This document shows positions 30,229-47,048 of a DNA stretch of 49,259 bases, one piece after another; position 1 is the stretch's first letter, and every line of letters begins with the position of its first letter. The stretch is from a virus. Both the position numbers and the translations under genes were made by a program. Below the pieces are notes generated by a model. It had not been told where the DNA came from. It saw nothing but the letters and a program-made list of their open reading frames with translations, and did no database searches. Location: positions 1 to 49,259 of IMG/VR virus record IMGVR_UViG_3300013286_000830, one strand, 5' to 3'.

Positions 30229-30258
30229 AGGAGCAATAAATACTAGTGAATATGTTGT

Positions 30259-30287
30259 AGTTTAGCACAGATGTAGACATATGTCAA
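30259..30287 (-). promoter_or_regulatory. sigma70-type early promoter for uvsE
   Basis: Minus strand: -35 TTGACA (30282-30287), 17-base spacer, -10 TAAACT (30259-30264). The uvsE ATG is about 30 bases downstream. Confidence 0.72.
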
Positions 30288-30295
30288 TAAGCTAA

Positions 30296-30490: not shown

Positions 30491-30936
30491 GCCTCATAAA
30501 TTGCACTGTTCGCTCCATGTTCTGCGCACTCAACTCGCACACAGTAACAGCGATTGCCTGTCTTTTCTCTAATTAAAGCATCAGCAAACGTGAAAGCATG
30601 TTCAGCAAACTTTTCCGCACCTACACCGTCAAAGATTCGAATCTCAGCCAAATTCAATGCTTCCAGTTCTTGGAATTTGATCAAATGTGGATCCTGCTTG
30701 TCCAAAGCCAGCTTGTGATCAAAGTGATCTTCCAGCCAGGCCTTGAGTGGTTTGAGTCCGCCAAAGTCCACTGCCCAGTTTTTGTCATCTAGTTGATCAC
30801 AGCCAAATGTGAATGTGAAAGCTAGACTGTATCCGTGTAGCAGGTGACAGTGTGAATGCTCTGCGTTGGGTTGACGGAATACCGCTGACAGACCAATGTT
30901 GTGTCCGTAATGTTTTGTTGAGTAAAATTTTGCCAT
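30487..30936 (-). CDS. queD: QueD-like 6-carboxy/6-pyruvoyl-tetrahydropterin synthase family protein
   Basis: 149 residues, one T-fold domain. Family marks are HSHCHLLHGYSLAFTF (27-42) with the catalytic-Cys candidate Cys30, NWAVDFGGLKPLKAWLEDHFDHK (with the HFDHK acid/base motif), and AEHGANSA near the end. The usual zinc set is altered: the HGH pair reads H34-G-Y36, and the N-terminal FxAxH His is absent, while His27, His29 and His31 are clustered nearby. I recall a subfamily with this pattern, so it may bind zinc differently. QueD makes the queuosine/7-deazaguanine precursor; phages use this for tRNA or DNA modification. No QueC, QueE or FolE is in the window. AAGGAG and an early promoter precede it. 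Confidence 0.82.
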   Translation of the reverse strand: MAKFYSTKHYGHNIGLSAVFRQPNAEHSHCHLLHGYSLAFTFTFGCDQLDDKNWAVDFGGLKPLKAWLEDHFDHKLALDKQDPHLIKFQELEALNLAEIRIFDGVGAEKFAEHAFTFADALIREKTGNRCYCVRVECAEHGANSAIYEA

Positions 30937-31039: not shown

Positions 31040-32299
31040 TTATTGACCCGCTATGAGACCAAATGGGGCCCAATGCCCAGGTGTGCCACTGGCTATACAA
31101 ATCCAGCCCACATAACTGGTCACAGTTGGTTCAGTGTTCCAGCAGATGTCGCCCTTGGCATACACTCCTGCTACAGGAGCTTGATTGCTGTGTGTTTGTA
31201 CCTGACCACCCAAGCTAACATCACCTGGTACAGTGAGATTCATGAGAGGATTGGGATTTTGAGTATTCACGCACACTGGACCAAAAATCTTCACGGGCTT
31301 TCTTGTGTTGGTACTGTCGCCTATCAAGATGCTGTTGTTGACATGTGCAACTATGTTGGTCATTTGTGAATAAAAAGATACATCGCCTGCACTGTTGATG
31401 TGATTGGATGTGATAGATAGTGCTGTACTGCCATGACCAACAAGCAAACTAGTGAGTGTGGCTTTGCCGTTCACAGCCATGTTGCCTGTCAACTCAGTAT
31501 TGCCGCTAACACTTAAATTTTGCAACACGCCCAGTGTGCTCAAGTTACTGAAAATAACTCCCGGACCCACACTGTTTGAACTCAGTACAGGAATACCGTT
31601 GATGTAGAATTCTTTGTTGTTGTCAATATCAATGCTTTCACTGCTGAACAATCTGTCAGGCCCTGGCATCAACATCAATTGTTTGGTATTGTTTGCAGAC
31701 TGTGTCCAAACTAGACCCAATCCATATGTGGTGCTATCGCCTGTGCTTACAAATTGCAAACTGCTGTTTCTTTCCACTCTTGTGTCAGAAACTATTCGTG
31801 TTACATTCAATTGACCGTGTATATTCACCACGGCAGATTGGCTTATGCTGTTGCCTATATCAATTACTCCACCTGCGCTGATACTGATTCTTGCGGTGTT
31901 ATCAGTCACTATAGACAAAGCATGATTGCTGGCAGTACCCATGGTTGCCAAGTTGATGTTAGGACTTCCAATCACAATGTTGACATTGTTTTCTACAATG
32001 TCTAAAGCCAAACTGGGTTCATTGGTACCAAGACCAAATCTATTGAATTCGCTATTGAAGTATGCAAAATTGCCAAACACCGCATCTCCAGATACATCCA
32101 AGCTTCTGAGAGTGCCAACTGATCGCAAGTTGCTGTTGGTAACCGTAACACCCAGTGTATTGGCAGTTAGTATAGGTGTATTATCAATGCTGTAGGCATT
32201 GCCGGCAGCTAGATCCAAACTGTAGTTGGACCAAATTCTACCGTTACGATTTACAAACAGTTGGGCAATGTTGGTTTGATTGGTGGGAATAGTGGGCAT
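31040..32299 (-). CDS. virion structural protein (tail/fibre-like)
   Basis: 419 residues, beta-rich, high in N, S, T and V and poor in charge. Repeated short patterns such as LRSLDVSGDAVFGN (about 65-78), LQNLSVSGNTELTGNMAVNG (about 266-285) and LMNLTVPGDVSLGG suggest a beta-helical or fibre body made of about 20-residue rungs. The last 50 residues (GVYAKGDICWNTEPTV; SYVGWICIASGTPGHWAPFG) form a compact C-terminal knob like those ending tail fibres. It lacks the NDGTGD N-terminal module of the other fibre genes. Transcribed alone from a late promoter at 32319 and translated only from that short message if the upstream hairpin works as it appears. Confidence 0.78.
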   Translation of the reverse strand: MPTIPTNQTNIAQLFVNRNGRIWSNYSLDLAAGNAYSIDNTPILTANTLGVTVTNSNLRSVGTLRSLDVSGDAVFGNFAYFNSEFNRFGLGTNEPSLALDIVENNVNIVIGSPNINLATMGTASNHALSIVTDNTARISISAGGVIDIGNSISQSAVVNIHGQLNVTRIVSDTRVERNSSLQFVSTGDSTTYGLGLVWTQSANNTKQLMLMPGPDRLFSSESIDIDNNKEFYINGIPVLSSNSVGPGVIFSNLSTLGVLQNLSVSGNTELTGNMAVNGKATLTSLLVGHGSTALSITSNHINSAGDVSFYSQMTNIVAHVNNSILIGDSTNTRKPVKIFGPVCVNTQNPNPLMNLTVPGDVSLGGQVQTHSNQAPVAGVYAKGDICWNTEPTVTSYVGWICIASGTPGHWAPFGLIAGQ

Positions 32300-32351: not shown

Positions 32352-33506
32352 TTACTGCACTTTTAGAAGCACCGTTTCCTCGTTGATACGACCGTTCATT
32401 CTAGTGTCTGTGGCATTTATTTCGTCTAGGAACTTGCGCAACTGCACCTTGCCAGCCGATTTGAACTCCTTGAGTTTTTCTTCCGGCTTGCGCAGCGTCT
32501 TACACACACTGAGATTTTCATTGAAGTTTACTATCGAAGTGCCCTTGATGGCCAATTCGTTGAACTCGGTGGCCACATACTTGCCCAACTTTCTAGTTTT
32601 GGTGTTGTAGATCCAAAGTTCTTTGGCACCAATCACATCAGTTGGGTTGATGCTCACCAACTTGGTAGGTTCATCTGATTTCTTGTATTTGAGCTTGGCC
32701 ACCAGCTTCTCTTTGGGCACACTTTTGCGAGCTTTGGGTTTGCGATTTGCCTTGGCTTCTTGGCTCAACATATCACAAGCCATCATGATTTCTTGATAGA
32801 ACGCAATTAGGTTCTTGATTTGCTTGCGGCTGCGATGACTGTATCCTTCGCGTAGCTGTTCATCTGCCTTGCCTGATGCCAACAGCTCCAGCTCAGATAA
32901 ATCCTTGCTGTAGAACCCTTTAATTACTCTTGCATGAGCCGCTTTTACCTGCTTGCCCTTGAGCAAGTTCAACATTTTAATGGCTTTGGGATTGAAATTT
33001 TCTGGATCAATTTGAAAACTTTCAATTGCATCCTCAATTTCTTCAACCATTTTTCCCGCAGTTTCTTTCATGCGATCCTGTATGCTGGGCTGTGCTAGCA
33101 CAGGTTTTGTTTCTTTGGTCTCCAGCTCTTCGATATCATTTTTTCCAGCTTCGATAACCTCTGCAATCGCTTTGCGCAACCAAGCGGCTGTGTCTTTGCC
33201 ATCATTAAAATCCTCCCTAACAGCGGGCATGCCTCTAAGCATGCAACTGGCAACAGATCCTATAGTAACACCACTACGGCTGTCTTTGGTTTTTTTGAAA
33301 GCAGCAATGTCAGATTTGGTACAACCAATATTGGTCATCCATTTTATCACTGCTGGTTTAAGATCTTTGCCATTGAATTCCAAACGATAGTATGCCATGG
33401 CATTGTGGAAGTTACGAAAAAATTGATTCGTATCCCATGACTCGTGACCTTCCCAAACTGGACTGTGATCCTTGGGTGCCCGTGTGCGGTTGGTTACCTT
33501 TACCAT
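32352..33506 (-). CDS. early phage protein of unknown function
   Basis: 384 residues from the ATG at 33506, chosen for AGGA eight bases upstream; the frame is open further to 33551 but runs into the promoter. The N-terminal part (about 10-75) is globular and aromatic-rich (VWEGHESWDTNQFFRNFHNA); the middle (about 100-250) is helical and charged, with EELETKETKP and KMVEEIEDAIESF; a basic linker (RKPKARKSVPKEK, about 245-258) leads to a C-terminal domain (IGAKELWIYNTKTRKLGKYV). The basic parts suggest nucleic acid contact. I recall similar proteins in T4-like phages without known function. Driven by a near-perfect early promoter. Confidence 0.78.
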   Translation of the reverse strand: MVKVTNRTRAPKDHSPVWEGHESWDTNQFFRNFHNAMAYYRLEFNGKDLKPAVIKWMTNIGCTKSDIAAFKKTKDSRSGVTIGSVASCMLRGMPAVREDFNDGKDTAAWLRKAIAEVIEAGKNDIEELETKETKPVLAQPSIQDRMKETAGKMVEEIEDAIESFQIDPENFNPKAIKMLNLLKGKQVKAAHARVIKGFYSKDLSELELLASGKADEQLREGYSHRSRKQIKNLIAFYQEIMMACDMLSQEAKANRKPKARKSVPKEKLVAKLKYKKSDEPTKLVSINPTDVIGAKELWIYNTKTRKLGKYVATEFNELAIKGTSIVNFNENLSVCKTLRKPEEKLKEFKSAGKVQLRKFLDEINATDTRMNGRINEETVLLKVQ

Positions 33507-33538: not shown

Positions 33539-33567
33539 ATTGTAGCAACAATCGAACTAGATGTCAA
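33539..33567 (-). promoter_or_regulatory. sigma70-type early promoter (near consensus)
   Basis: Minus strand: TTGACA (33562-33567), 17-base spacer, TACAAT (33539-33544), 33 bases upstream of the ATG at 33506. The -35 lies within the last codons of the nucleotidyltransferase gene (stop at 33557). Confidence 0.8.
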
Positions 33568-34300
33568 CACGCTCTATATCAGATTCTAGGCATGCTTGGC
33601 CCTGTTGTATTTCCACAACATGCAACAGCGTGGTGCCAATATTTTCTAATTGATGCCATTCGTATGCATGTATTTTGAGTGTACCAAGGGTTTTTATATC
33701 AGAGTGTCCCAGATCCCAATGCACACGAGCGATACCCTGTATCACAAACCATGTTTCATCTCTATGTTTGTGTCGTTGCATACTGAGCTTTTGTCCCGGC
33801 TGTACTATTAATTCTTTTACTTTTACAGTGTTGTTTGGTTGCGACAACACACGCCATTCTCCCCAATCTCTCTTGACATGCTCTCCTGTCCAGTTGTGCA
33901 AAATAAAACTACTGGAATTTTTTTTGTTGTTACCACCAACGCCAAATTTAAAAGTGATATCTTTGATTTTCATCTCCGGTATGTTGTTGGCAGCACGATC
34001 TCCTCCATTGGCAAAAATAATTTCATCTTCAGGATAGTGAGCCCGCACCTGTTGTATAAGATGGCAGGCCGATCCATCTTCATCATCGAATGTGTAAACT
34101 TCATCCACCATGGCTAGATTATTGATAATGCATAAACGTTCATGCCAAGGCATGAATGCCCGACCCTTTTTGCGCTCTAACCACTCATCGCTGTTTAGTC
34201 CCACAATCAACATGTCGCCCAATGTTCTTGCGGCCTTGAAATATGCAATGTGACCGCTGTGCAGAGGATCAAATCCTCCGGACACTAATACTATAGTCAT
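33557..34300 (-). CDS. cytidylyltransferase-cupin fusion (nucleotide-sugar pathway)
   Basis: 247 residues in two domains. Residues 1-130: nucleotidyltransferase of the RfaE/HldE-like cytidylyltransferase superfamily, with SGGFDPLHSGHIAYFKAAR (HxGH at His14-His17), a middle motif FANGGDRA and the usual end segment as SSSFILHN. Residues 145-247: a cupin like the C-terminal domain of ManC (type II mannose-6-phosphate isomerase), with VQPGQKLSMQRHKHRDETWF and EWHQLENIG, which supply the metal-binding His and Glu. The pairing implies activation and isomerisation of one sugar or polyol phosphate. No similar fusion comes to mind. It overlaps the dehydrogenase gene by four bases and closes the glycan cluster. 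Confidence 0.85.
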   Translation of the reverse strand: MTIVLVSGGFDPLHSGHIAYFKAARTLGDMLIVGLNSDEWLERKKGRAFMPWHERLCIINNLAMVDEVYTFDDEDGSACHLIQQVRAHYPEDEIIFANGGDRAANNIPEMKIKDITFKFGVGGNNKKNSSSFILHNWTGEHVKRDWGEWRVLSQPNNTVKVKELIVQPGQKLSMQRHKHRDETWFVIQGIARVHWDLGHSDIKTLGTLKIHAYEWHQLENIGTTLLHVVEIQQGQACLESDIERVDI

Positions 34301-35526
34301 TTTTTAATCCTAGTATTTCCGTAGTGTATCACAGTGCATCCTTCAATGTCAGGTGTGGTGCGCCACGGATCCATTATAACACTACCCACAGCAGGAGTAA
34401 AATACCAGCCTTGCGAACTGCCATCGATTCCAGTGCCAGCATATGTAACACAAGCATTGTGAGCCATCAATATGATTGCCGGAGCATCTGCCACAGCAGT
34501 ATCACCCGTTAGAGGATCAGCATAGGTCAATGGCACACCAGCTTGTTCAACAAAGTGTCCTACCAGTTCGCTGTAACTGCCAATGGTGTATTCCACATAG
34601 GGTTTATAGGCTCTTCCATGTATAACTACAGGCAAGTTATGATCCTTAGCCAAACTGACCAGTTTGTTAGCCATGTTCTTGGCCTGCTGGTCTCTACTGA
34701 CCATTATGGTTTGAAACAGATCATAACCTAGATCCAAACGCTCTGCTAGAAACCGGAGTGCAATATTGTCGCGGGGATGACAAGCACCTGCATCGCCCAT
34801 GCCCGCTGTGAGATATCGTGGACCAGTGATGCGTTGTGTAGCGGCTTTCAGTGCATCTGTTACCACATCAACATCAATGTTGCCATTTTTTTCTGCTACA
34901 TCCTGTATCATGTTTACCAATCCAATTTTTGCACTGATAAATGTGTTGTAAAACACCTTGATGCATTCTGCTTCGTCCCAAGTGCCTATATTGATATTGG
35001 GATTGTTTTGCATTATGGGTTGGTAAAAGTCAACCAGCATTTGGGCATCGCCTGTATCACTGCCATCTTCTGTGCCCACAATCAAACACTCTGGATTAAC
35101 CATGTCCCATTTCACTGAGCCCATGGCAATCAAATAGGGATTGTAGATGAACCGAGCGTTGGTGATGCAAGGACGCAAATGCGCTCTCACTGTTCCCGGC
35201 AATACTGTGCTGATTAGCACCACCAACTGCGTGTGATCAGCATGCTGATTGATTTCTGTCAATACCTGTTGCACAATACTGTAATCAAAGTCCTTGGGTG
35301 GAAGGTTTGCTATGGGTCGTCCTCCACCATATTGGGGATCATGGGGCGTGGGCACAGCAACAAAAATTAAATGTCTGCCTGTTATGGCATCCTTAATGGA
35401 GTCAAGCAGTGTAATTTCAGCATCAGGGCATTTAACCGTATCATATCCGCAAACATCATAATGCTTGGCCATCACTTCGGCACAGGGCAGTCCCAATTTG
35501 CCACATCCTATCATTGCAACTTTCAT
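34297..35526 (-). CDS. UDP-glucose/GDP-mannose dehydrogenase family enzyme
   Basis: 409 residues, full length for the family, which oxidises a nucleotide sugar to the uronic acid in two NAD-dependent steps. The Rossmann start is VAMIGCGKLGLPCAE (3-17); FVAVPTPHDP (about 55-64) and the STVLPGTV segment follow. The catalytic cysteine is Cys249 in GMGDAGACHPRDN, where the usual sequence is GGxCFPKD; Phe to His and Lys to Arg are unusual and may shift substrate choice. The NAD-binding C-terminal domain is shorter in places but has HGRAYKPYVEYTIGS. Placed between a glycosyltransferase-like gene and the cytidylyltransferase fusion, it probably supplies an acidic sugar to the cluster. Confidence 0.9.
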   Translation of the reverse strand: MKVAMIGCGKLGLPCAEVMAKHYDVCGYDTVKCPDAEITLLDSIKDAITGRHLIFVAVPTPHDPQYGGGRPIANLPPKDFDYSIVQQVLTEINQHADHTQLVVLISTVLPGTVRAHLRPCITNARFIYNPYLIAMGSVKWDMVNPECLIVGTEDGSDTGDAQMLVDFYQPIMQNNPNINIGTWDEAECIKVFYNTFISAKIGLVNMIQDVAEKNGNIDVDVVTDALKAATQRITGPRYLTAGMGDAGACHPRDNIALRFLAERLDLGYDLFQTIMVSRDQQAKNMANKLVSLAKDHNLPVVIHGRAYKPYVEYTIGSYSELVGHFVEQAGVPLTYADPLTGDTAVADAPAIILMAHNACVTYAGTGIDGSSQGWYFTPAVGSVIMDPWRTTPDIEGCTVIHYGNTRIKK

Positions 35527-35545
35527 TTTTTAACCTCTTGTTAAG

Positions 35546-36703
35546 TTAATTATCACTAGATAAAATGTCTTGTAAATTTTTAGTAATGACTTTGCTATTT
35601 GCAAGCAAATTGTAGTTGTGTATGGCTATGTGAAATGTGGCTTCTTGGAACAAGATCCAATCATGGTCACTCAATCTGCAAAGTCTATCTATTTCATCAG
35701 TGATAAAATCCATTCGTGCATAGTCGTCATCTATAGAATCATAAGTTTCATTTATCCAAGGATGGAATGTTTTGTATCCCAATTGGTTCAATATGTGCAA
35801 CGAGTAAGGTCTAGTTACTATGACAAAAGGCCTTTTTGATGCAATGGCTTTGAATATTTTTTCCGTAAAGAAAAAAGAATCCAATGAACAATTTGTATTT
35901 GGCTTAATGTCTTTATAAAAATTGGTTTCTGTAACTACAGTAAAATAAACATCATTTATGAGTGGAATATCAAAACGCTGCAAACAACCCAACGATTCAG
36001 TGAGATTTGAAACCAGTTTCAGTGGCAACAATCCACTATCTAGTATAGTTGCCGCAATATCTTTGTGTCTTATAGGTTCAACTTCACTTAATAGATCACT
36101 GTTAACTTCATCGATTATATTTGCACCAAAGCCATAAAATGAGTAATAGGAATATTTTAACAAATCCTTTTGGAGTATTTGAGAGAACAATGCCAATCTA
36201 TGCGGCCTGGGATTTCGATTCCAGCAGAGAAATTTTTTATTTTTCAGAACAGCATTTGTGTGGATTTTTGCTTGAATATCGCCAATATGACTGTTACCGT
36301 TTTCATATGAGTTTGAAAATATGATATTAGCCAGCGGAGCAACATCAAATGCTTTACAGTGTTGCAAATACATTTTGGCATTTTCTTTAATAGGGTGCAG
36401 GCCTGTCAACAGATACACACTATCAAAGTTATATTTTTCTTTCAAAACTGGACATATAACTTGATGCACAGCTCTGAAAATATGATAGGGCAACCCTTCG
36501 CCGTGTATGTCAAAAAGTATGCAGTATCTTGCCTGGCGGGTCATTTCATGATAAAATTTATCGGCCAATAGTAGCAGTTGGACATCATCTATATCGAAAT
36601 AGCACTCTACTATGAGAGCATGCGGCACAACTTGTTTTGCCGCAGAGAAGGGATCATTGTTGATAAAACGCACAATGTCATTGTCTGGGTTTATTGAGGT
36701 CAT
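35546..36703 (-). CDS. glycosyltransferase-like protein, paralogue C
   Basis: 385 residues, no signal peptide. The key C-terminal motif FFTEKIFKAIASKRPFVIV (about 281-299), then LNQLGYKTFHPWINETYD, resembles the nucleotide-sugar-binding region of fucosyltransferase-like (GT10-type) enzymes. A middle motif, FLCWNRNPRPHRLALFS (about 158-174), is shared with the two paralogues at 39575-40747 and 41489-42778. The first 130 residues are poorly conserved and may bind the acceptor. Its ATG follows the SGNH-like gene stop immediately. A glycosyl transfer role is inferred from these motifs and from the dehydrogenase next door. Confidence 0.75.
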   Translation of the reverse strand: MTSINPDNDIVRFINNDPFSAAKQVVPHALIVECYFDIDDVQLLLLADKFYHEMTRQARYCILFDIHGEGLPYHIFRAVHQVICPVLKEKYNFDSVYLLTGLHPIKENAKMYLQHCKAFDVAPLANIIFSNSYENGNSHIGDIQAKIHTNAVLKNKKFLCWNRNPRPHRLALFSQILQKDLLKYSYYSFYGFGANIIDEVNSDLLSEVEPIRHKDIAATILDSGLLPLKLVSNLTESLGCLQRFDIPLINDVYFTVVTETNFYKDIKPNTNCSLDSFFFTEKIFKAIASKRPFVIVTRPYSLHILNQLGYKTFHPWINETYDSIDDDYARMDFITDEIDRLCRLSDHDWILFQEATFHIAIHNYNLLANSKVITKNLQDILSSDN

Positions 36704-37465
36704 CTACATACCAGCATGTTCAAAATTCCAGTGGGGCATGTAGGACCTTACTGTGTTGATAATAGAAGATTGCATGGCAAAATATTCCATGTTTTTGTTC
36801 ACATTGTTACTAATTTCCAGTTGCAATCTATGCAACATGGCTCTGCTGCTACCTAGGTCAAGATCAAATTTTGTATCTATGTGGTTGTCGAAAAAGTGCA
36901 AATGATTTGCAATATCAGGATGACCATCTGCACATTTGTCAAAGAAATGTGAATTTGATTCTATTGGCCATAAATCTAGCAAGGGCAGTTGAGGCAACCA
37001 GTAGTTGGCCACTGGATTTTTCATTTTTATTTCATCAGCACTGTTGTCAGTTTCTATATCGAGATAGTTTAACATGTTGAATTGATACGCAATAGGATAT
37101 GCTTTATTGGCTGTGAGTATAGCGGTGGAATTTTTTATAATGTCGTTCTCCCAACTCCAATATTTTTTCTTAAAATCTGCATCATAAAAAGGGTTATTGA
37201 ACACATTGCCATAACATCTCCATTGATCTAGCCAGCGGTCTTCTCTAGTCCAGCTGGACCACTGTACTATTATGGCATCATGTTCTGTGAATTTATAAAG
37301 TGCATCAAATTCAGCTAAACGGCATAGTATGCCCATGTTACCCATGCCTGGCTTGCCGAGATTGTATACTGGGCGGTCTGTGGCCAAGGCAATAATATCT
37401 GCCCAAGTGGGCCAATAATATTTGGTCCAGCTGCATCCAAAATTGAAATACCTATTGTAATTCAT
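36704..37465 (-). CDS. SGNH-hydrolase-like protein, paralogue C
   Basis: 253 residues from the ATG at 37465; a longer frame starts at 37576 but those codons lie inside the radical SAM gene. Blocks of the SGNH fold: FGCSWTKYYWPTWADIIA (about 8-25, nucleophile Ser in GCS), NLGKPGMGN (oxyanion Gly and Asn), VQWSSWTREDRW, and DGHPDIANHLHFF near 180 with Asp and His. The enzymes hydrolyse or transfer acyl esters, often acetyl groups on sugars. It begins 14 bases inside the radical SAM gene before it, exactly as paralogue A does with its own radical SAM partner. Probably edits the product of the cluster; the substrate is unknown. Confidence 0.78.
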   Translation of the reverse strand: MNYNRYFNFGCSWTKYYWPTWADIIALATDRPVYNLGKPGMGNMGILCRLAEFDALYKFTEHDAIIVQWSSWTREDRWLDQWRCYGNVFNNPFYDADFKKKYWSWENDIIKNSTAILTANKAYPIAYQFNMLNYLDIETDNSADEIKMKNPVANYWLPQLPLLDLWPIESNSHFFDKCADGHPDIANHLHFFDNHIDTKFDLDLGSSRAMLHRLQLEISNNVNKNMEYFAMQSSIINTVRSYMPHWNFEHAGM

Positions 37466-39575
37466 GCTTGTATTTAAATGTGATTGGAAATTCTTTTGGT
37501 GCCACGATATTGGACACACCAACGATATACTTATGCTGGTCGCACCAGTTGCCCTGGCCCTTCCAGTTTTTTTCAAACGACCAATCTATATCTTGATTCA
37601 ATTGGGTTTCTTCATCGAACAAATCTGCATAATCCTTGTCAGTTCTGCCGGCAATCCCCCACTTAGGTTTCGCTAACTGTCTTGCTCTGGTTGCTGCATT
37701 ACTGGTCATGTTGCTGAAGTCCTGAGCAAAAAAAGCACCCTGTCTGTGTTCTTCTTTGTAGGGCTCGTAGTTATATGTCTGCAAAAATTTCCAAGAGAAG
37801 TCAGCATGCCAGTGCCCTTGTGCGTTTATTGCAAATTTAAATTTAGCTGTGTATTTTCCACTGCCGTATTGGTTGCCAAATTCTTGTGTGTCTAGATCAG
37901 GATCAAATTTTATTTCAGTTTGATATCCGCCTCTTGTACGCCACAGCATGCGCAACAAGGGCCAAATTTCGTTAATCAAACTGTCAGCATAGGGATTGAT
38001 GTCACTTTCTATAATTTTGTAATCAAATTGCTCATATTCCACATCGTGGTTTACCTCGTCGTCATACTTAATCCAGTAGTGCATTTTTTTGAGATTGGGC
38101 CTATTGGGGTAAGAAATTTTCCTGTCCCCTATTATCTGATCCAAGTAGATACTCATCATCTTGACACGCATGAGTGTGTGTGAACCTCCCATGCTGAAAT
38201 CCTTTGTGATCCAGTGTCCTAGATATTTTTGATAGCTGAGATTGAACTTGTCAGGATTTTGTCCTGTAATGGTTTCTGGGCCTTGCCCGAATCCAATACC
38301 AGTGCTCATGTTGCTGATATTCATGTCTCTATTGCGCCAAAGAAATGTCATGGTATCTGCATAATCTTGCCCAGTTTCCGTTGGAAAGGCCACAATCCAA
38401 TTGGTTGCGGCTTGTATGCCCACGCTGTTACCATCTCTAAAGTTTTGCTCCATTTCACTTATGGTTACACCTTTGGCCATGTGGTCCAACACTTTTTGGC
38501 TACCGGATTCACAACCATAATTGAGATACACACATCCGCTGTTTGCTAGATCTTGCATGTACTCCAGATTCATTCTGCCATCACATCTAGCATAACCAGT
38601 CCATTTGATTTGTAATCCTTTGGCAATGATACCTTTGGCAAATGCCCTTAGTTCTTTGAGATTGCCATTAACCAAACTGTCAATGAACCAAAACACTCGT
38701 GTGCCCTTGTTGTTATAGAGATATTCTACTTCGGTCAACGCATCTACGGCCATGCGCTGTCTATACTTCCAAAAGTGCGTTTCCTCACAAAAAGTGCATT
38801 TGGCTATGCATCCTCTGCTGAGCTCAGTGGTAACTCCATTGGGAATCTTGTATTCATTAAAATCAATATGATCAAAGTCAGGCATGGGAAATTTGTTTAA
38901 GTTGAGTCTTTGATCTTCTGGTTGTGTAATATACTGTTGATTGAGATGTGCAATATTTTTCTCCACTTCTTCAAGTATCCTAAGGATAGCCTCTTCGCCT
39001 TCTCCACTTACCACATAGTCATAATAGGACTCCTTAATGAAATAGCCCTTTTGCACATTTGGCCCTCCCACGGCAATTTTAACATGCGGAAGTCTGGCTT
39101 TCAATTGCTGTACCATCCATTTGGTAGGTTCTTCATTCATTTGATAGATACTAAAACCAACCAAATCAGGAGCATACTCTATGATGTCTTCAAGTGTTTG
39201 TTCAAGGAAAGGCTTGAAATGTCCATGCAGTTCTTGATAGTTATTGTCGCACCAGCGCCAAATAGTGGTAGGATCCCACAGTTTGTAAGACAATTTATTT
39301 TTGAAATTTTTATCATAATATCTATAAGCCTTGATATTGGCATCCAACACACGACTGGTGTATCCTGCCTGTTTGGCCACAGCCGACAATCTACAAAGAT
39401 TAAAGGGCGGAAATTCAGCCGCCCATTGAGGCAACAGCACCAGCATGAGTCTGGTGTGTCTGTCAGCACACTCCATTTCAACCAAAGTGGTATTTCTTTG
39501 CTCTACTGGCTTGGCATACTGAGCTATGGCCTGCAGCGTGTTGAGATGTTTGTCATCGCCTGTTTGATAGGTCAT
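37452..39575 (-). CDS. B12-binding-domain radical SAM enzyme
   Basis: 707 residues. Residues 40-205 form a cobalamin-binding-type Rossmann domain (PPFNLCRLSAVAKQAGYTSR, DLVGFSIYQMN, VKIAVGGPN, YDYVVSGEGEEAI) but lack the DxHxxG histidine that binds cobalt in base-off form. The radical SAM core starts with RGCIAKCTFC (Cys256, Cys260, Cys263, the 4Fe-4S ligands), then IKWTGYARCDGRMN and YLNYGCESGSQ. After about residue 480 there is a long C-terminal region of unknown role. Class B members methylate or rearrange unactivated carbons; the reaction here cannot be read from sequence. It ends ...HELQ, with the next gene's ATG in the same letters. Part of the glycan-type cluster. Confidence 0.87.
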   Translation of the reverse strand: MTYQTGDDKHLNTLQAIAQYAKPVEQRNTTLVEMECADRHTRLMLVLLPQWAAEFPPFNLCRLSAVAKQAGYTSRVLDANIKAYRYYDKNFKNKLSYKLWDPTTIWRWCDNNYQELHGHFKPFLEQTLEDIIEYAPDLVGFSIYQMNEEPTKWMVQQLKARLPHVKIAVGGPNVQKGYFIKESYYDYVVSGEGEEAILRILEEVEKNIAHLNQQYITQPEDQRLNLNKFPMPDFDHIDFNEYKIPNGVTTELSRGCIAKCTFCEETHFWKYRQRMAVDALTEVEYLYNNKGTRVFWFIDSLVNGNLKELRAFAKGIIAKGLQIKWTGYARCDGRMNLEYMQDLANSGCVYLNYGCESGSQKVLDHMAKGVTISEMEQNFRDGNSVGIQAATNWIVAFPTETGQDYADTMTFLWRNRDMNISNMSTGIGFGQGPETITGQNPDKFNLSYQKYLGHWITKDFSMGGSHTLMRVKMMSIYLDQIIGDRKISYPNRPNLKKMHYWIKYDDEVNHDVEYEQFDYKIIESDINPYADSLINEIWPLLRMLWRTRGGYQTEIKFDPDLDTQEFGNQYGSGKYTAKFKFAINAQGHWHADFSWKFLQTYNYEPYKEEHRQGAFFAQDFSNMTSNAATRARQLAKPKWGIAGRTDKDYADLFDEETQLNQDIDWSFEKNWKGQGNWCDQHKYIVGVSNIVAPKEFPITFKYKHELQ

Positions 39576-40747
39576 TAGATTTCCGACACAAAGGTTTTTT
39601 TTCTCATGAGTGTTTGAAAATTGTGTTCGCAGATTTCTCTAGCATGTTGTATGAACTCAAACAATTCATTTTCCTGCAAATCACAAAGTCTCCTGATCTC
39701 TTTGACTATCATCAACATTCTTTTACCGTCATTTGTTTCCAAATCATAACTTTCATCTATTATGGGAGAAAAAGTTTTATAACCCATGGCCTTGTAAATT
39801 TCCAAACTACGCGGAACGCTCACAAGTAGAAAAGGATGGCGCATAGCAATTGGCTTAAACGCTTTCTCACTTAGAAATCTAGCAGAGTCATACCAATCTT
39901 TTGTAAAAAAAGTAGTTTCGGAAATCACACTAAAATAACTATTTTCATAGAATATATTTGTATCAGCAGTGGCTTCTGCGCGATTTATGTAAAGTTGATC
40001 AGTGTCCAAATACATGGGTGGTAAATTTGTTACACTGGAATATTGTGTAAGTAAATCAATAATATCGGGCTGATTTCTAAAACAATGCATTAGTTCAGGC
40101 CATCTAGTGTGCCATACATCATTAGTATCACATGGCCCAAAGCTAACATGACCTTTATCTAATAACTCGCGACCATGCAGTAGAGTGATTAGGAAAGGCC
40201 GATGCAATCTCCATCGTCTGTTTAGGCTTAGGTATTTTTTGGGATAATCTTTAATTGTAAGTGTTTTAGGTAGGTTTTTTTTATATACATAATTCACGGA
40301 GTTTTGAAGATCAGATTCAAACAGTCTGTACCAAAAAATAAGTATTGCCTGTTGCGATAACCGCTGTGCCAGTTGTCTACTGTATGTACCAGCATCATGC
40401 ATATTGGTCAGTAGTATAATTTGTGATGCTGGTATTCCTGCTTTAATGACAATGTGGAGATAGATAGAATCTATAGACTTGACAAATGGTTCCAATGCAT
40501 TGTCCAAAACTAGGAAAAGTTTCTTTTCAAGGATTAGTTGCAAACTATCTTCGTCTATGAGATCAAGTATGTCATACAGTTTAAAACTGTGCTGACATGA
40601 GAACATACAATACCAACCTCGTAATTCTATATAGGTAGCGTCTTGCAACATGCAAATCGCCGCAGTGGAAATGCTTGACCATTCTAATCTAGGGTTATTA
40701 GGATCATAGCTGTTGATAACAGGAAACAACTTGTTGACTATTTTCAT
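39575..40747 (-). CDS. glycosyltransferase-like protein, paralogue B
   Basis: 390 residues. Same plan as paralogue C: YLSLNRRWRLHRPFLITLL at about 172-190, and FLSEKAFKPIAMRHPFLLVS followed by LEIYKAMGYKTFSPIIDESYD at about 290-335. The LSEKAFKPI segment is the part shared by fucosyltransferase-like proteins. The N-terminal half diverges from the other two copies, in keeping with different acceptors. It starts with an ATGA overlap with the SGNH-like paralogue B and its stop overlaps the next ATG by one base (TAATG), so all three are coupled. Function inferred from motif and context. Confidence 0.75.
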   Translation of the reverse strand: MKIVNKLFPVINSYDPNNPRLEWSSISTAAICMLQDATYIELRGWYCMFSCQHSFKLYDILDLIDEDSLQLILEKKLFLVLDNALEPFVKSIDSIYLHIVIKAGIPASQIILLTNMHDAGTYSRQLAQRLSQQAILIFWYRLFESDLQNSVNYVYKKNLPKTLTIKDYPKKYLSLNRRWRLHRPFLITLLHGRELLDKGHVSFGPCDTNDVWHTRWPELMHCFRNQPDIIDLLTQYSSVTNLPPMYLDTDQLYINRAEATADTNIFYENSYFSVISETTFFTKDWYDSARFLSEKAFKPIAMRHPFLLVSVPRSLEIYKAMGYKTFSPIIDESYDLETNDGKRMLMIVKEIRRLCDLQENELFEFIQHAREICEHNFQTLMRKKTFVSEI

Positions 40748-41496
40748 ATGCGATTGTTATTGACTCTGAACAGCATGTCATCGAATTCTACTATAGCTTC
40801 CATGATCTCTTGTTCATGTTCCAAAAACTGCATGGTGTGATTGGACCAAACTGTTTTAGGAAATAGTTTTTGCAAATAACCAAAATGCTGTATTGGGCTT
40901 GGATGGTAGTCAGCTGACTGATGTCCTTTTTTTGTTATGGGATGTTGAGGCCACTTGCCATTCATGCCTAATGTCAAAAGATCTGGCAAGATACTGTCAA
41001 ATGTTGATTTATAAGTTGCACAAATCATGCGATATTTCATTTGACTTATGTTGTCTGTACTAGTGATCGTGAAAGGGCTCATGTTCAACATGTAATAATC
41101 ACATGACTTGGTTTGTAGATATTGCTTGATCAAGGTAATGAGATTGATGTCTCTCAAAAGATATCCTACCTCATCAGCAAAATCCGTTACAAATTTATCA
41201 TCATAGAATCCCTGTGTGTATATGTTGCCCGGAGTCAACCAATTGCCTTTCACATGCCGATCCTCTCTAGCTACAGAGCTCCACATGATCATGATCAAAT
41301 CGCCATCTGTGAAATTGTGTTTCAAGTCCGCTTCAGTAACTTGACAACTGATAAAAAGATTGCCGCCACCCGACTGTGCATAGTTATGATACTCAGGAAT
41401 TTCTTGTGCTATGATATCAGCCCAAGTGGGCCATCCATATGATGTCATACTGCAACCAAAGGCAAAGAATCTTTTGTACTTTGCAAAGTCAAGCAT
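40744..41496 (-). CDS. SGNH-hydrolase-like protein, paralogue B
   Basis: 250 residues, no signal peptide. Blocks: FAFGCSMTSYGWPTWADIIA (about 11-30, Ser in GCS), NYAQSGGGN (Gly-Asn oxyanion block), MIMWSSVAREDRH, and DYHPSPIQHFGYL near 200 (Asp-His pair). Close in sequence to paralogue C (GCSxTxYxWPTWADIIA is nearly identical), so the two come from one duplication. Its ATG overlaps the preceding glycosyltransferase-like gene by eight bases and its stop overlaps the next by four. Probably an ester hydrolase or acyltransferase acting on the cluster's product. Confidence 0.78.
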   Translation of the reverse strand: MLDFAKYKRFFAFGCSMTSYGWPTWADIIAQEIPEYHNYAQSGGGNLFISCQVTEADLKHNFTDGDLIMIMWSSVAREDRHVKGNWLTPGNIYTQGFYDDKFVTDFADEVGYLLRDINLITLIKQYLQTKSCDYYMLNMSPFTITSTDNISQMKYRMICATYKSTFDSILPDLLTLGMNGKWPQHPITKKGHQSADYHPSPIQHFGYLQKLFPKTVWSNHTMQFLEHEQEIMEAIVEFDDMLFRVNNNRI

Positions 41497-42778
41497 TTAA
41501 ATACTCCTCAGAGCAGGTCATGATGTCGCGTAAGCCTGTGTGATAGAAATTGATTTTTCTACACAAGTAAAAATTGTGCATGATAGTGGGCATGCTGTTC
41601 TTTATTCTTCTAATCTTTTCTTCTTTAGATAATTGTATCCAGCTTACCAATTCACTGTATGTGGCATAGAATCTTTCAATGTCGTTCTCGATGTCATTGT
41701 AATAGGGATTTATACTGCAATAATCGATCCTGAATCCCAGTTGTTCCAAGGCTCTTAGGGTATGAGCAGATGCCAGCAGTATCATGGGATGACCATAAGC
41801 TAGGCATTTGAATATTTTTTCTGTGATAAACACTACATTTTCTTTATTGCTTTGAAATTTGGTTTCGGACACAAAACTTAATAGAGAGTTTTTGAACACA
41901 CTTTCATGCACGGTGTTGGCAGCATTTATCTGTGCCCAATCGCCGTCCACATGTCTAGGAAAATGCTGTCTCATATAGTTGTCAAAATCTGATATCAAGT
42001 AATTAGCGCATGCTCTGGTAGTTTTATCATTTATCAAACTTAAAATTTCAAGTGGATCCGCTTGGCCGCAGTTTAGTTCGTTGCAACTCACCATTCCCGA
42101 ATCCAATAGTTGGTCTCTGGCCAGCATGTACAAGTGTGCCAATCTGTGCGGTCTTGACACCCTATTGAGACTGTTGAATGCGGTAACTTCTGGATTAGCA
42201 AGGGATTGATTAATGATTGGATCTGCTGGAAATACATCTTTATGAAAAAAGATACGATCAAAGTGTATCATGTGTTTAACTGAAAACAGTTTGGGACTGC
42301 CCGACTCTATAAGCCAGGCACCGTATTGCTCTTGTATTTTGTAGTTTCCTTGCACTATCAGAACTGAGTCCACCGGAAGGCCTAAGTCTTGCATGGCTCT
42401 AGTGGTTTCTGCAAATGCATTTTTATTATTGTATATAAAGCCACCACCCTCTCTATCTGCTGCTATCACCAGTCTAAGTTTTTTACATCTTGCTAAATCC
42501 AGTACATGGATTGGAATTTCTCTCAGTACATGATTGCGAGGCAAGCTGGAAGAAAAATCTATGCCAGTCCACCATATAGGATCACCATTTACTTCTATGA
42601 AATAGCATCCTGACTCTGTGAGATTATCCAAAGTATCTATCTTTATTCCAGCTAGTACCAATTGTTTTTTTAAATTTGTACCTTCTGGTATCAGCCAAAA
42701 AGATTCACCATTGGGTCCAGTTTTAAGGTGGGACATATTGGCTTCGTTTATATTGGCGTTGTCAAAATAGCATTTCAT
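41489..42778 (-). CDS. glycosyltransferase-like protein, paralogue A
   Basis: 429 residues, the longest of the three copies. Shared motifs: NSLNRVSRPHRLAHLYMLAR (about 201-220), and FITEKIFKCLAYGHPMILL, then LRALEQLGFRIDYCSINPYY at about 320-360. The end differs from paralogues B and C in lacking the YKTF...ESYD segment. The first 150 residues look like a separate alpha/beta domain (KLRLVIAADREGGGFIYNN). ATGA overlap with the radical SAM gene upstream. Glycosyl transfer is inferred; it could also be an inactive binding version. Confidence 0.7.
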   Translation of the reverse strand: MKCYFDNANINEANMSHLKTGPNGESFWLIPEGTNLKKQLVLAGIKIDTLDNLTESGCYFIEVNGDPIWWTGIDFSSSLPRNHVLREIPIHVLDLARCKKLRLVIAADREGGGFIYNNKNAFAETTRAMQDLGLPVDSVLIVQGNYKIQEQYGAWLIESGSPKLFSVKHMIHFDRIFFHKDVFPADPIINQSLANPEVTAFNSLNRVSRPHRLAHLYMLARDQLLDSGMVSCNELNCGQADPLEILSLINDKTTRACANYLISDFDNYMRQHFPRHVDGDWAQINAANTVHESVFKNSLLSFVSETKFQSNKENVVFITEKIFKCLAYGHPMILLASAHTLRALEQLGFRIDYCSINPYYNDIENDIERFYATYSELVSWIQLSKEEKIRRIKNSMPTIMHNFYLCRKINFYHTGLRDIMTCSEEYLNA

Positions 42779-43935
42779 GGTATCAATTGTTTTAGTTCGG
42801 GAAAAACTTCCGTAAATTTTCTATGGCGCAAGGTGTCATACTGATTTGTCTTGGCAACAAATTTTGCATGAAGATCAGCATCAAATTGTGAATTTTCTAG
42901 ATTGGTTATCATGCTGTTGATGCTGTCTTGATATCTAGCGGGCCATGTGGTTTGCCGTAAGTCATCCAGTATTTGTTTTTTCATGTGATTGGGTAACACC
43001 TGCATGCTATAGTAGTCGGGATTAATTATATTATAGCAACTGAATGTAAATTTAGCATCCAGTAATTCTATCAAAGTGTCTAAAAAAGATTTTACTGTGG
43101 CAATGTTGAACACCGAAATCACGCTGCTCACGCCCAGTATCACATTGGGCACCTGGGTCTTAATCGTTTTAATATTTTTTTCTATTACTGTCCAATCTGT
43201 GCCTTCACGAATGTACTCGGCTCTTCCACCCCAACTGTCCAAACTTGCAAACACGGTCACATTTTTGAACTGTGTCCAGTAGTCCAGCACTGATGTTTGC
43301 TTGTAGTTTAGCTTGCTGAGATTGGTATTGTATCGCAATTTAACATCAGTCTTGCCTATAGATATAAGATGATCGAGTATTTGGTAATGCTGTTCAGTCA
43401 GCAAGGGCTCGCCACCGGCAAAATATATCTCTTTCATGTTTTTGAAATGCGGCATGAATTCATTGTACAACTTGTCGTTGCTTTCACCACCAGCATATAT
43501 AAAGATTTCTTTCTTGCCATCTTCTTTTGCCCAGCTTGAGCTGTAGGTGCTAGAACAGGTACGACACTTAAAATTACAAATGTTGCTCCACCTTACATCA
43601 AAGTAGTGAAGATTCATGTAATCCAGAGATCCATCAGGATTGGTATCCTTGGCGTAAGGCAAAAATTCAGCAAACTGTTGATTAACAGAAGTTCTGTAAC
43701 TTGCACTGCCTTGATCCTCTGATCTATAACATGCGGAACACTGCGTGGCTCGTTGGCCTGACAGCATGTCAGTGCGGAGTTGTTTGTAAGTAGAGCTGTT
43801 CCATATTTCCTTGATGCTGTTTTTTTGCGTATTACCCATGTGCTGATGATGCTCGGCTATACAGCAGGGTAACACACTGCCATCAGCATTGGCATACATG
43901 TGTATCCAAGGCAGTATGCAAAAGGTTTCAGAGGT
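42775..43935 (-). CDS. radical SAM enzyme with N-terminal twitch-like domain (B)
   Basis: 386 residues from the ATG at 43935, eight bases inside the upstream gene; an in-frame start at 44037 lies in coding sequence of that gene and is less likely. Residues 1-80 carry a Cys pattern (FCILPWIHMYANADGSVLPC with Cys7, Cys25, Cys26; QCSACYRSE with Cys67, Cys70) like the auxiliary-cluster (twitch/SPASM-type) region, here ahead of the core. The core has SNICNFKCRTCSS (Cys121, Cys125, Cys128) and IYFAGGEPLL (SAM-binding GGE). Relatives modify peptides or small molecules. It is a paralogue of the enzyme at 44838-46208 (both have the GGEPLL and SxDxWGxxAEYIR motifs). Substrate unknown. Confidence 0.85.
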   Translation of the reverse strand, partial: TSETFCILPWIHMYANADGSVLPCCIAEHHQHMGNTQKNSIKEIWNSSTYKQLRTDMLSGQRATQCSACYRSEDQGSASYRTSVNQQFAEFLPYAKDTNPDGSLDYMNLHYFDVRWSNICNFKCRTCSSTYSSSWAKEDGKKEIFIYAGGESNDKLYNEFMPHFKNMKEIYFAGGEPLLTEQHYQILDHLISIGKTDVKLRYNTNLSKLNYKQTSVLDYWTQFKNVTVFASLDSWGGRAEYIREGTDWTVIEKNIKTIKTQVPNVILGVSSVISVFNIATVKSFLDTLIELLDAKFTFSCYNIINPDYYSMQVLPNHMKKQILDDLRQTTWPARYQDSINSMITNLENSQFDADLHAKFVAKTNQYDTLRHRKFTEVFPELKQLIP

Positions 43936-44851
43936 CATTGCGCCACCCTGCTGATCTACATAAGTATTGCGCCCACAACAGGTGACCATATTGATTGGGA
44001 TGGTTGTTGTGTAACGCATTGGTTTTGATAAAGTCATTGCACTCGTTGATTATATTCAATTGTGAGTTGGCATAACCAATATCAACTGCAACATTATATT
44101 CTTCTTGAAACCTCGCAAACCAGCCTATGGAATAGAAATCAGGCATTTCTACATTGCGGCTTAATACTTTTCCTGAATATTGAATCCAACTGGTTTCCTC
44201 GATTTTGAATGCATAATTTCTTTTTGGTGTAACTGTTCGACAAAAGTTTTTCCACAATGTGGCATCCATATTCAAATTAAATTTTTGTAATGTGTTATGA
44301 TAGATATCAAAAAATATCTCGTCGTAGGATCTCAGCCAGTCTTGTATTTCATACTGCTGGTTACGGTTATACAATGCACTAAGGGGATGGCCCGTATCTT
44401 CAATAATATTTGATATTGCCATCTCTCTACCAGGCTCAGTCATTTGAACACTTACATATATCTTGTCATAATCAAAGGTGCTGGCATGAGATAGCATTCT
44501 TTCTAATTCTGAAAACATATACATGTTGCAGTTTCCTGGTACTGCATACTGATAGAGATCTGCATCCAACATCAAGGCCATCCTTGATCCCAATCCTAGG
44601 CTCAGTTGGGTCAGCAAACTGTATTGGTTTAAGGCTGTGGCAATATTTGGAAGTGTTTCGCCGTAGGCCCAGCTTTCTCCTACAACAATCAACAGTGTTT
44701 TTTTGTTTCGTTTTACAAAGATTTCTGAAAACTTTACAGGTGTCTCGATCCAGTTGGGTTTTTTATTGATATCATTTAGCCATATAGTTGCATCCGTCCA
44801 CAGTTCAAGGCCTATGTTAGGCAAATATGTATCAAATTTATACCAATTCAT
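43928..44851 (-). CDS. SGNH-hydrolase-like protein, paralogue A
   Basis: 307 residues from the ATG at 44851, which lies 14 bases inside the radical SAM gene; a longer open frame to 44974 is not needed. Blocks: LLIVVGESWAYGETLP (Ser in GES), YAVPGNCN (Gly-Asn block), KIYVSVQMTEPGRE, and HPNQYGHLLWAQYL at the C-terminus (His). More divergent than B and C and with an extra N-terminal 55 residues, but the same fold plan. The shared 14-base overlap with a radical SAM gene, with CATGAATT at the junction as in paralogue C, points to an old duplicated pair. Likely an esterase or acyltransferase; substrate unknown. Confidence 0.72.
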   Translation of the reverse strand: MNWYKFDTYLPNIGLELWTDATIWLNDINKKPNWIETPVKFSEIFVKRNKKTLLIVVGESWAYGETLPNIATALNQYSLLTQLSLGLGSRMALMLDADLYQYAVPGNCNMYMFSELERMLSHASTFDYDKIYVSVQMTEPGREMAISNIIEDTGHPLSALYNRNQQYEIQDWLRSYDEIFFDIYHNTLQKFNLNMDATLWKNFCRTVTPKRNYAFKIEETSWIQYSGKVLSRNVEMPDFYSIGWFARFQEEYNVAVDIGYANSQLNIINECNDFIKTNALHNNHPNQYGHLLWAQYLCRSAGWRNDL

Positions 44852-46208
44852 GGCATTCCTTATAGAACTTTTCCAGCTCAGGAAATGTTGAGACGAAGTT
44901 GATATTTTTTCGTTTATCATATTCCTTGAACCATAGATAAAAATCTCTACGGCCTTCCTGTAATTTTTGATCACTGTAGTTTGTGGTTTCCATGTACCTA
45001 ACTATGCGGCTGAATTTATCATGTTCCATTTGACTAAATTTAGTGTTGTTTAAATCATCAACATTGTCCGATATGAATTGCATGTGAGAATGCATATATG
45101 GCATAAATTCTTCCTTGGGCAGTATGTTAATATCGTATTGTAAAGGTTCCTTTAAATGTGGCACATCAAATCTTACTCGTTGCCATTTTGTTTGATTGTG
45201 ACTGTTGTATTTTAGTCTCCATTCCAATATCTTGGCAAGTAGTAGATGGAAATTAGTCACAGTGAGTGCATTGAAGGTAACCATAAATGTAAGGGGTTGA
45301 TTTGTCTTGGTCAAATAGGTGTCAAAGTTGCGCTCCCATACCTCAAGATTCAAACCATATCTTATGTATTCAGCAGCGGAACCCCAAGTATCCATGCTGG
45401 TAAAAATTTTGAATGCCCTGATCTTTTTACTGGCCAACAAACTGTTTACCCTTTCTACCAATCTGTCTATCAATACGGGTTTGACTCCGAGATTGCTGTT
45501 GATATTCAATTCTAGGTTTGGCAACGGATTGATTTCAAGATCCTCCAACAGACGCCATGTGCTGGCCTGTAGCAAAGGCTCACCGCCTGTGACGCGCAAA
45601 ATGTTAAGTGTCTTGCTGACATCTGGCCACCACTGCCACCAGGCTTTAACATATGGATTATTTTCTTCTTCGTAGAGAACAAGATCATCCACTCCAAATC
45701 CATGGTTCTTTACGGGATAAGCCCCATGGGTTTTTATTTCTTTGTAGTAACTGCTGCTGGCTTTGGGATGGCAGTAGCCACATTTGAAATTGCATTCATT
45801 GCCAAAGCTGACTTCTATATACTCAGGATTAACATTGTAATCCGGTCCTTCCAGTTCTATTTGTTGCAAACGTTTAGGGTTATATATACTAGCATTTCGC
45901 TCTTGGCGATCGCTGATGTAGTCTGGACCCATGGCTTCTATGTTCCAACAATATGCACAACCTGTTGGTTGGCCACCATTCAACATTTCAAGCCTTTGTA
46001 ATTTTTTCTCCTTGGTGTTGTGTAGCGCACTGGGATTTATGCGTATTTCGTCTAGGGGTATCTTGTGTGGTGCTGGATGATAGCAACTGTGGGTTTCCCC
46101 TGACTGGAGATAAATGGTAGTATGATGCCATTTTGCCAGACAAAATGTGGAACTGATCCTATCAGTTATGTCTTGAATCTGTATTATCTTGTTTTTGTCT
46201 TGCATCAC
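44838..46208 (-). CDS. radical SAM enzyme with auxiliary cysteines (A)
   Basis: 456 residues. Core motif FGNECNFKCGYCHPKAS gives Cys139, Cys143 and Cys146 as 4Fe-4S ligands; VTGGEPLL follows as the SAM-binding GGE. Before the core, Cys23, Cys42 and the CxxC at 84-87 (PTGCAYCWNIE) mirror the auxiliary-cluster region of enzyme B. FTSMDTWGSAAEYIR matches FASLDSWGGRAEYIR in B, so the two are paralogues. The C-terminus ...CHELV carries the ATG of the next gene in a 14-base overlap. Starts three bases after the preceding gene. Likely carries out a radical modification of a peptide, sugar or lipid; the target is not shown. Confidence 0.85.
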   Translation of the reverse strand: MMQDKNKIIQIQDITDRISSTFCLAKWHHTTIYLQSGETHSCYHPAPHKIPLDEIRINPSALHNTKEKKLQRLEMLNGGQPTGCAYCWNIEAMGPDYISDRQERNASIYNPKRLQQIELEGPDYNVNPEYIEVSFGNECNFKCGYCHPKASSSYYKEIKTHGAYPVKNHGFGVDDLVLYEEENNPYVKAWWQWWPDVSKTLNILRVTGGEPLLQASTWRLLEDLEINPLPNLELNINSNLGVKPVLIDRLVERVNSLLASKKIRAFKIFTSMDTWGSAAEYIRYGLNLEVWERNFDTYLTKTNQPLTFMVTFNALTVTNFHLLLAKILEWRLKYNSHNQTKWQRVRFDVPHLKEPLQYDINILPKEEFMPYMHSHMQFISDNVDDLNNTKFSQMEHDKFSRIVRYMETTNYSDQKLQEGRRDFYLWFKEYDKRKNINFVSTFPELEKFYKECHELV

Positions 46209-46211
46209 AGA

Positions 46212-47048
46212 TCAGGTCCACAGACTCTGTCTTATTTTAATAAGACGAATCATCATAGCTTCATCTTCATCTTCGTAGGTTTTTTCAATCTTTTGAAGTA
46301 GCTTGTGTGCCTTGTCACTGGCCTTTTTGATATTAGGATCTTTTTCAGTGCCAAAATGCAGGCGGCCACCGTTGGCAACACGACTCGCTTCACATGCCGC
46401 AGTCCAGCCACTAGCTTCGTAAGGGTCGGGGCGATTGCGGTATGTTGTGGTCCACCAAGTGTAAAGTTCAATGATTTCTTTAGAACTTTTGGCTTGGTAT
46501 GTGGGTTCACCATAGCCTTTCTCGTCTGGCTCAGCACCCATGTCCTTATCAACAACTAGTCCGCTTGCCCAAGTCAAATACTCCATACCAGCTTCGGCAT
46601 TACGCCAAGTACGCCAGCGCAACCAGCCACTACGCCACCAAGGCACATTGAATTTTGTTTTGGCATCGTCGTCCCACATGCAGTGATGCCATGCCTGCTC
46701 GATCTCAACAAAATCCACCAACTCGTTGAACATGCAGAAAAGAAATCGATTCCCAACATCTTGCCATTGACCAGGCTTAATGTCACGGGGATGAGCTGTA
46801 AGAGCATGACTGCGACTAACCCAACGATTGTTGATGTAGTATCTAACATCATGCAATTTGTCCATGGGCCAGTTTACAAAATTTTGTACTGCATCCAAAG
46901 CTTCTTCAGCTAGCCAATAGCGAAAGCTGTGCCGCATCTGAGCCAAAGTATTCCACTCGTCCCATTCTTCGCTAGTGCCCGCGGGTAATTTTTTCGTGCC
47001 CCGTATCCAGTCTGCAAATGCTGTGCATGACCAATAACTACTTCTCAT
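46212..47048 (-). CDS. conserved Trp-rich phage protein, unknown function
   Basis: 278 residues, soluble, unusually rich in tryptophan (about 20): YWSCTAFADWIRGTKK at the start, WWRSGWLRWRTWRNAE in the middle (about 138-153) and TWWTTTYRNRPDP near 198. The C-terminus is helical and charged (KIEKTYEDEDEAMMIRLIKI). I recall similar proteins in other tailed phages but no function. It is the first gene of the block that runs through the radical SAM cluster (three bases from the next), with AAGGA eight bases before the ATG. Whether it belongs to the cluster functionally is unclear. Confidence 0.72.
   Translation of the reverse strand: MRSSYWSCTAFADWIRGTKKLPAGTSEEWDEWNTLAQMRHSFRYWLAEEALDAVQNFVNWPMDKLHDVRYYINNRWVSRSHALTAHPRDIKPGQWQDVGNRFLFCMFNELVDFVEIEQAWHHCMWDDDAKTKFNVPWWRSGWLRWRTWRNAEAGMEYLTWASGLVVDKDMGAEPDEKGYGEPTYQAKSSKEIIELYTWWTTTYRNRPDPYEASGWTAACEASRVANGGRLHFGTEKDPNIKKASDKAHKLLQKIEKTYEDEDEAMMIRLIKIRQSLWT

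Follow-up and report, generated by a model that had tools for sequence, protein, structure and literature searches.

An Ordered Radical SAM, SGNH-Like and Glycosyltransferase-Like Gene Cassette at a Variable Site Beside Tail-Fibre Genes of an Uncultured T4-Like Phage

Introduction

What would a T4-like phage gain from eleven contiguous, mostly overlapping genes for radical SAM enzymes, SGNH-like and glycosyltransferase-like proteins and enzymes of the nucleotide-sugar type? The question is raised by a cluster at positions 33557–46208 of an uncultured bacterial-virus record of 49,259 bases (IMGVR_UViG_3300013286_000830), here called the window, to which coordinates refer unless another source is named. 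A sequence-only reading of this DNA had described a threefold radical SAM/SGNH/glycosyltransferase (GT) unit acting as one pathway, and had considered it a candidate for an undescribed system. We found that the genes form a set whose order is conserved in diverged phage loci, and that the cluster is probably a glycan-modification cassette. The reading that we prefer, with a probability of about 0.5, is that the cluster is an exchangeable cassette, placed where a T4-like phage encodes its host recognition, and that it most likely decorates the phage's own tail fibres.

Layout and Conserved Order of the Cluster

The eleven open reading frames (ORFs) predicted earlier were confirmed, all on the minus strand. 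The cassette begins with R1 (44838..46208), an N-terminal-twitch radical SAM enzyme, followed by S1 (43928..44851), a divergent SGNH-like protein; R2 (42775..43938), an N-terminal-twitch/SPASM radical SAM enzyme; G1 (41489..42778), a GT-B-like protein of the GT family; S2 (40744..41496), an SGNH-fold enzyme; G2 (39575..40747), a GT-like protein of predicted GT-B fold; and a B12-binding radical SAM enzyme of the class B type (37452..39575), referred to below as the B12 enzyme. The remaining genes are S3 (36704..37465), an SGNH-like enzyme of the S2 family; G3 (35546..36703), a further GT-B-like protein of the GT family; UGD (34297..35526), a protein of the UDP-glucose/GDP-mannose dehydrogenase family; and CTC (33557..34300), in which a cytidylyltransferase-like domain is fused to a cupin of the mannose-6-phosphate-isomerase type. 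The listed ORFs of S1, R2 and S3 extend to 44974, 44037 and 37576, and their starts were shifted downstream to 44851, 43938 and 37465 according to homologue alignments. With these revised starts, the ten internal junctions measure −14, −11, −4, −8, −4, −1, −14, 0, +19 and −4 nt, that is, eight overlaps of 1–14 nt, one exact abutment and a largest gap of 19 nt. The close packing noted in the sequence-only reading thus holds for nine of the ten junctions (≤0 nt). The start of R1 lies 3 nt downstream of the preceding gene. The GC content is mostly ≈0.38–0.43 in the cluster and 0.41–0.50 in the rest of the window, a difference compatible with acquisition but only weakly indicative of it.

Viral contigs were scanned with the B12 enzyme, which yielded 45 loci with 52–78% identity, and with R1, which yielded 248 viral relatives, 80 of which were kept. 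Gene order was compared over a core set of eight genes (R1, S1, R2, G1, S2, G2, the B12 enzyme and UGD) in non-redundant viral loci that contained at least five of them. In 14 of the 15 loci, the order was identical and on one strand; the unit is therefore conserved across viral contigs and does not represent a chance grouping. The closest complete set, on contig L121, reads R1-S1-R2-G1-S2-G2-B12-S3-UGD. In the window, the cluster is bounded by two core genes that mark conserved edges of the site, w46u upstream (46212..47048, minus strand) and w32 downstream (32352..33506, minus strand; phrog_11903). The left junction, w46u-R1-S1, was the same in an independent contig (L222), and the right junction, UGD-CTC-w32, was the same in another (L157), which makes an assembly artefact unlikely.

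Enzyme Families

The three radical SAM genes of the sequence-only reading were all upheld. R1 and R2 scored 307.5 and 388.2 bits against the full-length model NF033640 (curated cut-off 170) and thus qualify as members of that family; R2 also matched the SPASM (6.5e-15) and Radical_SAM (9.1e-7) models of Pfam. The B12 enzyme matched Radical_SAM with 54.2 bits (cut-off 29.5) and the B12-binding domain with 47 bits (cut-off 32.1), also in Pfam. The CxxxCxxC motif is present in all three proteins, at residue 139 in R1 and residue 154 in R2 (numbered in the listed ORFs). In NCBIfam, the B12 enzyme matched many B12-radical SAM subfamilies, each below its own cut-off, the top match being TIGR03975, the model for a radical SAM C-methyltransferase in the maturation of ribosomally synthesised and post-translationally modified peptides (RiPPs), with E = 1.1e-32 and 113.3 bits against a cut-off of 281.85. 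We know of no established function for NF033640. A Bacteriovoracaceae genome (L316, 6037–18033) contains eight N-twitch-type radical SAM genes in ≈12 kb, and similar clusters occur in L289 and L290.

G1, G2 and G3 could be aligned as one family, with 13 invariant columns shared with 33 homologues; an invariant Glu and a Glu-Lys pair stand out in the alignment. None of the three matched a catalogued GT family in Pfam or NCBIfam, or informatively in PHROG. The GT-B fold was tested on G2 and the SGNH fold on S2. The AlphaFold2 (AF2) model of G2 (predicted local distance difference test score, pLDDT, 93.7) displayed the two Rossmann domains of a GT-B fold, with Foldseek matches to trehalose-6-P synthase and SdgB (probability 1.00; template modelling score ≈0.4). 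The proteins close to it in structure come from uncultured phages and are uncharacterised; one of them (rank 7) is a 788-aa viral chain in which a UDP-glucose dehydrogenase domain is fused to this type of GT. The three GT-like genes recognised earlier thus appear to be one family, for which the model of G2 predicts a GT-B fold.

The AF2 model of S2 (pLDDT 94.0) displayed an SGNH fold, with Foldseek matches to TesA and rhamnogalacturonan acetylesterase (probability 1.00 for both) and to PatB. S2 and S3 share a common alignment with an invariant GCS, which contains the conserved block I Ser, and an invariant DxHP, in which the Asp-His pair is one residue short of the DxxH of SGNH block V. S1 has a GESW block and, in place of DxxH, an HxxHP that lacks the Asp; its profile match to the S2 family is weak (hhalign E = 0.03, probability 1.7%). 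The earlier count of three SGNH-like genes therefore stands for S2 by fold and for S3 by alignment, and S1 is weakly supported. Profiles of the GT and SGNH families gave only chance matches to the sequences of solved structures.

The nucleotide-sugar dehydrogenase and the cytidylyltransferase-cupin fusion were both borne out by Pfam. UGD matched UDPG_MGDP_dh (6.7e-16; 58.6 bits against a cut-off of 25.4) as well as phrog_9148 (2.2e-89), and fell short of the subfamily cut-off of TIGR03026 (138 against 189.8). CTC matched CTP_transf_like (2.2e-12) and MannoseP_isomer (1.2e-22).

A literal triple duplication of a radical SAM/SGNH/GT unit was ruled out, since the three radical SAM enzymes belong to two families, S1 is divergent and the genes follow no strict repeat order. 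The repeated units seen in the sequence-only reading are accordingly not a literal tandem repeat.

Genomic Contexts of the Cassette

The site between w46u and w32 was surveyed in 69 non-redundant loci covering the two genes and what lies between them. It is empty in five of these (56–64 bp in the ones listed) and up to 12.8 kb long in the others. An N-twitch radical SAM gene is present in 37 of the 69 loci, its start usually within 25 bp of w46u. Other cargo carried at this site in relatives includes an NDP-sugar epimerase, a dTDP-rhamnose epimerase, a sulfotransferase, a DUF6492 protein, an AMP-binding enzyme and BKACE. The relatives that share the w32 site include contigs of 223–356 kb (L138, L151 and L049), and the window may consequently represent only part of the genome of a jumbo phage.

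R1 relatives were also followed in 66 non-redundant loci, only 10 of which have w46u upstream. In 54 of the 66, R1 is preceded by the gene c1, present once or twice, which encodes ≈300 aa with a DxD-like motif and is itself often preceded by more GT-like genes. The c1 gene gave no profile match; from its sequence, we read the product as putatively GT-A-like. A tail-fibre-type gene lies 4.4–8.8 kb upstream on the same strand in 33 loci, and a relative of this fibre gene is annotated as a virion structural protein or tail pin in PA5oct-like phages. The sequence downstream of R1 was long enough in 55 loci: a GT of the present family lies there in 52, an SGNH-type gene in 44 (a count that takes in two more SGNH-like families, c9 and c12, recognised by their motifs) and a further radical SAM gene in 32. 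Two loci, L346 and L282, display fibres followed by GT, radical SAM, SGNH or epimerase, GT-B and UGD genes; both are filed under Rhodobacteraceae and Rickettsiales metagenome-assembled genomes, but by gene content are T4-like phage contigs. Variable cassettes headed by R1 thus occur at two phage sites that are unrelated to each other. R1, S2, G2 and G3 had no match among 50,697 phage records; among sequenced phages, c1 had no match and the B12 enzyme one weak match, and we found no sequenced isolate with the cassette.

In the window itself, the cassette adjoins w31 (31040..32299, minus strand), a fibre-like virion protein with PHROG matches to virion structural and tail-fibre proteins. About 6 kb downstream of the cluster, on the same strand and within a run of fibre genes, lies the gene for a giant tail-fibre-like protein of 5286 aa (11866..27726, minus strand), which contains 25% Ser+Thr and has no Pfam match. 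Its gp9/10-like N-terminus resembles those of the nearby ORFs at 10712–11866 and 8565–9110, which match the tail-fibre connector phrog_677. This fibre is a candidate acceptor for the glycan.

Proposed Function and Alternatives

In the cassette as we picture it, UGD and CTC would help to supply an activated sugar and the GT-B-type enzymes would attach sugars. The radical SAM enzymes, two of the twitch type and one of the B12 type, may alter the sugar, or the point at which it is attached, by reactions such as dehydrogenation, epimerisation or C-methylation, and the SGNH enzymes would put on or take off acyl groups. The product would decorate the tail fibres of the phage, and a swap of cassettes would alter the fibre surface. 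What the analysis establishes is the gene families, the fold of a single GT and of a single SGNH protein, the fixed gene order, the variability of the site and its position beside fibre genes; these chemical steps, the fibre as acceptor and joint action in one pathway we infer. The single coordinated pathway of the sequence-only reading withstood the conditions which that reading had set for its refutation, since a GT and an SGNH member have fold matches and relatives keep the genes in a fixed order; the concerted action of the enzymes is presumed.

The main rival, a substantial but lesser possibility, is that the cassette remodels the surface polysaccharide of the infected host (the O-chain or core of lipopolysaccharide), for instance blocking superinfection or freeing progeny from receptor-bearing debris; the phage would bring modified sugars and transferases and borrow the lipid carrier and exporter of the host. 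The analogous islands of pelagimyophages have been interpreted in this way in print (PMC7029224), and nucleotide-sugar operons that include UGD are present in the cultured phages Bellamy and HTVC008M. However, none of the eleven proteins has a convincing transmembrane segment, and the cluster thus lacks any membrane protein such as a flippase or polymerase; a ligase is likewise absent from it. In many relatives, moreover, the cassette ends a run of tail-fibre genes, where late expression would be expected. It is the lack of membrane proteins, together with the place behind the tail fibres, that leads us to favour modification of virion proteins in the cytosol. Several observations weigh against fibre decoration by a sugar pathway. 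In Vibrio phage K566, the radical SAM/GT cluster adjoins homologues of PagP and LpxC (L278, 24984–26250), which points to the host envelope. T4-type late promoters were matched about as often as expected by chance, with no match ahead of the cluster. At the w46u–w32 site, 10 of the 15 one-gene islands are a lone radical SAM gene without any GT. The bacterial neighbours of N-twitch radical SAM genes carry no glycan signal (one GT2 among 45 adjacent proteins), and the bacterial members of NF033640 are found mostly outside sugar loci, unlike R1 and R2. Given such neighbourhoods and the lone genes, a role of the radical SAM enzymes in sugar chemistry rests on the phage context. The lone genes would be accounted for if the twitch enzymes modified amino-acid side chains in a protein of the phage itself, its tail fibre or another, to produce a new handle that the transferases glycosylate and the SGNH enzymes acylate, an arrangement that we regard as rather unlikely.

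The remaining explanations deserve less weight than glycan decoration of the fibres. Islands at the same site differ greatly between relatives, the lone radical SAM genes included, as might be expected of unrelated acquired genes that lie side by side and share no pathway, but this view is already largely refuted by the conserved order in diverged loci, to which the overlaps in the window can be added, and it appears improbable. The sequence-only reading had also allowed for a small-molecule product. SPASM and twitch domains are common among peptide maturases, and the best NCBIfam match of the B12 enzyme is to a RiPP model, so that the radical SAM enzymes might be thought to mature a RiPP-like peptide; that match is far below its cut-off, however, and the three GT-like proteins, UGD and the cytidylyltransferase are enzymes of the sugar type. 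The overlapping genes, with no internal gap above 19 nt, leave no room for a short precursor gene, and such a product is very improbable. Hardly any weight can be given to glycosylation or hypermodification of phage DNA. Some phage GTs are able to modify DNA and a PTPS/QueD-like gene lies nearby (30487–30936), but no DNA-modifying GT, hydroxymethylase or complete deazaguanine pathway was matched in the cluster, and the content of the cassette is variable to the point of being wholly absent in close relatives. With no matching genes, this reading was rejected.

Comparison with Known Systems

Hypervariable islands of T4-like pelagimyophages carry GTs, rfaE, UDP-glucose dehydrogenase and radical SAM cassettes (PMC7029224). 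Like the region around the cassette, the host recognition cluster (HRC) of pelagimyophages and cyanomyophages varies in content and combines tail fibres with sugar genes; it is described there as lying between VrlC and gp14. The site in the window lies between w46u and w32. The text of the same paper names no ordered radical SAM/SGNH/GT-B module and does not mention SGNH proteins, and its chief GT family is GT8. Synechococcus phage Bellamy and Pelagibacter phage HTVC008M encode UGDs 59% and 47% identical to that of the window, in operons where UGD is co-directional with GTs, methyltransferases and a carbamoyltransferase; the regions examined contained no radical SAM gene and no member of the window's GT-B or SGNH families. 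The published islands and these cultured cyano- and pelagiphage operons, with their related dehydrogenase, mean that the cassette is not a categorically new system, and the term “undescribed system” was too strong. In the literature, we did not find a description of the specific ordered radical SAM/SGNH/GT-B set, its anchoring by R1 or its two insertion contexts.

A further parallel, in radical SAM content, is K566, a KVP40-like isolate, in which four N-twitch-type radical SAM genes are interleaved with GT8/GT4-type genes. These radical SAM proteins are only ≈25% identical to those of the window, the GT families differ, and no relative of the SGNH proteins or of the B12 enzyme was found in K566. 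Mycobacteriophages are reported to bear glycans on their own capsid and tail tube (Freeman 2023, as cited in PMC12619734), whereas the acceptor in the window is one that we infer.

If the product of the cassette resides on the virion, radical SAM chemistry would help to build a virus surface; we know of no earlier case of this, nor of radical SAM or SGNH enzymes reported from the mycobacteriophages that glycosylate their virions. If it resides on the host, the cassette would reveal a way in which uncultured aquatic phages reshape the envelope of their host. Pfam and NCBIfam contain no relative of annotated function for the GT-like or the SGNH-like family, so that new enzyme families would be named in either case. 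The set is conserved, ordered and testable, and represents radical SAM cassettes that have so far only been touched on in aquatic phages.

Expression Signals and Neighbouring Genes

Counts of sigma-70-like promoters were close to those in shuffled sequences, and counts of terminator-like structures were slightly above them. A peptidase-like protein (9857–10687; phrog_16701) is encoded inside the fibre region. Between the giant fibre gene and w31, positions 28377–30936 carry genes for a superoxide dismutase, a UvdE-type UV endonuclease and the PTPS/QueD-like protein, and their order beside w31 and w32 is kept in relatives.

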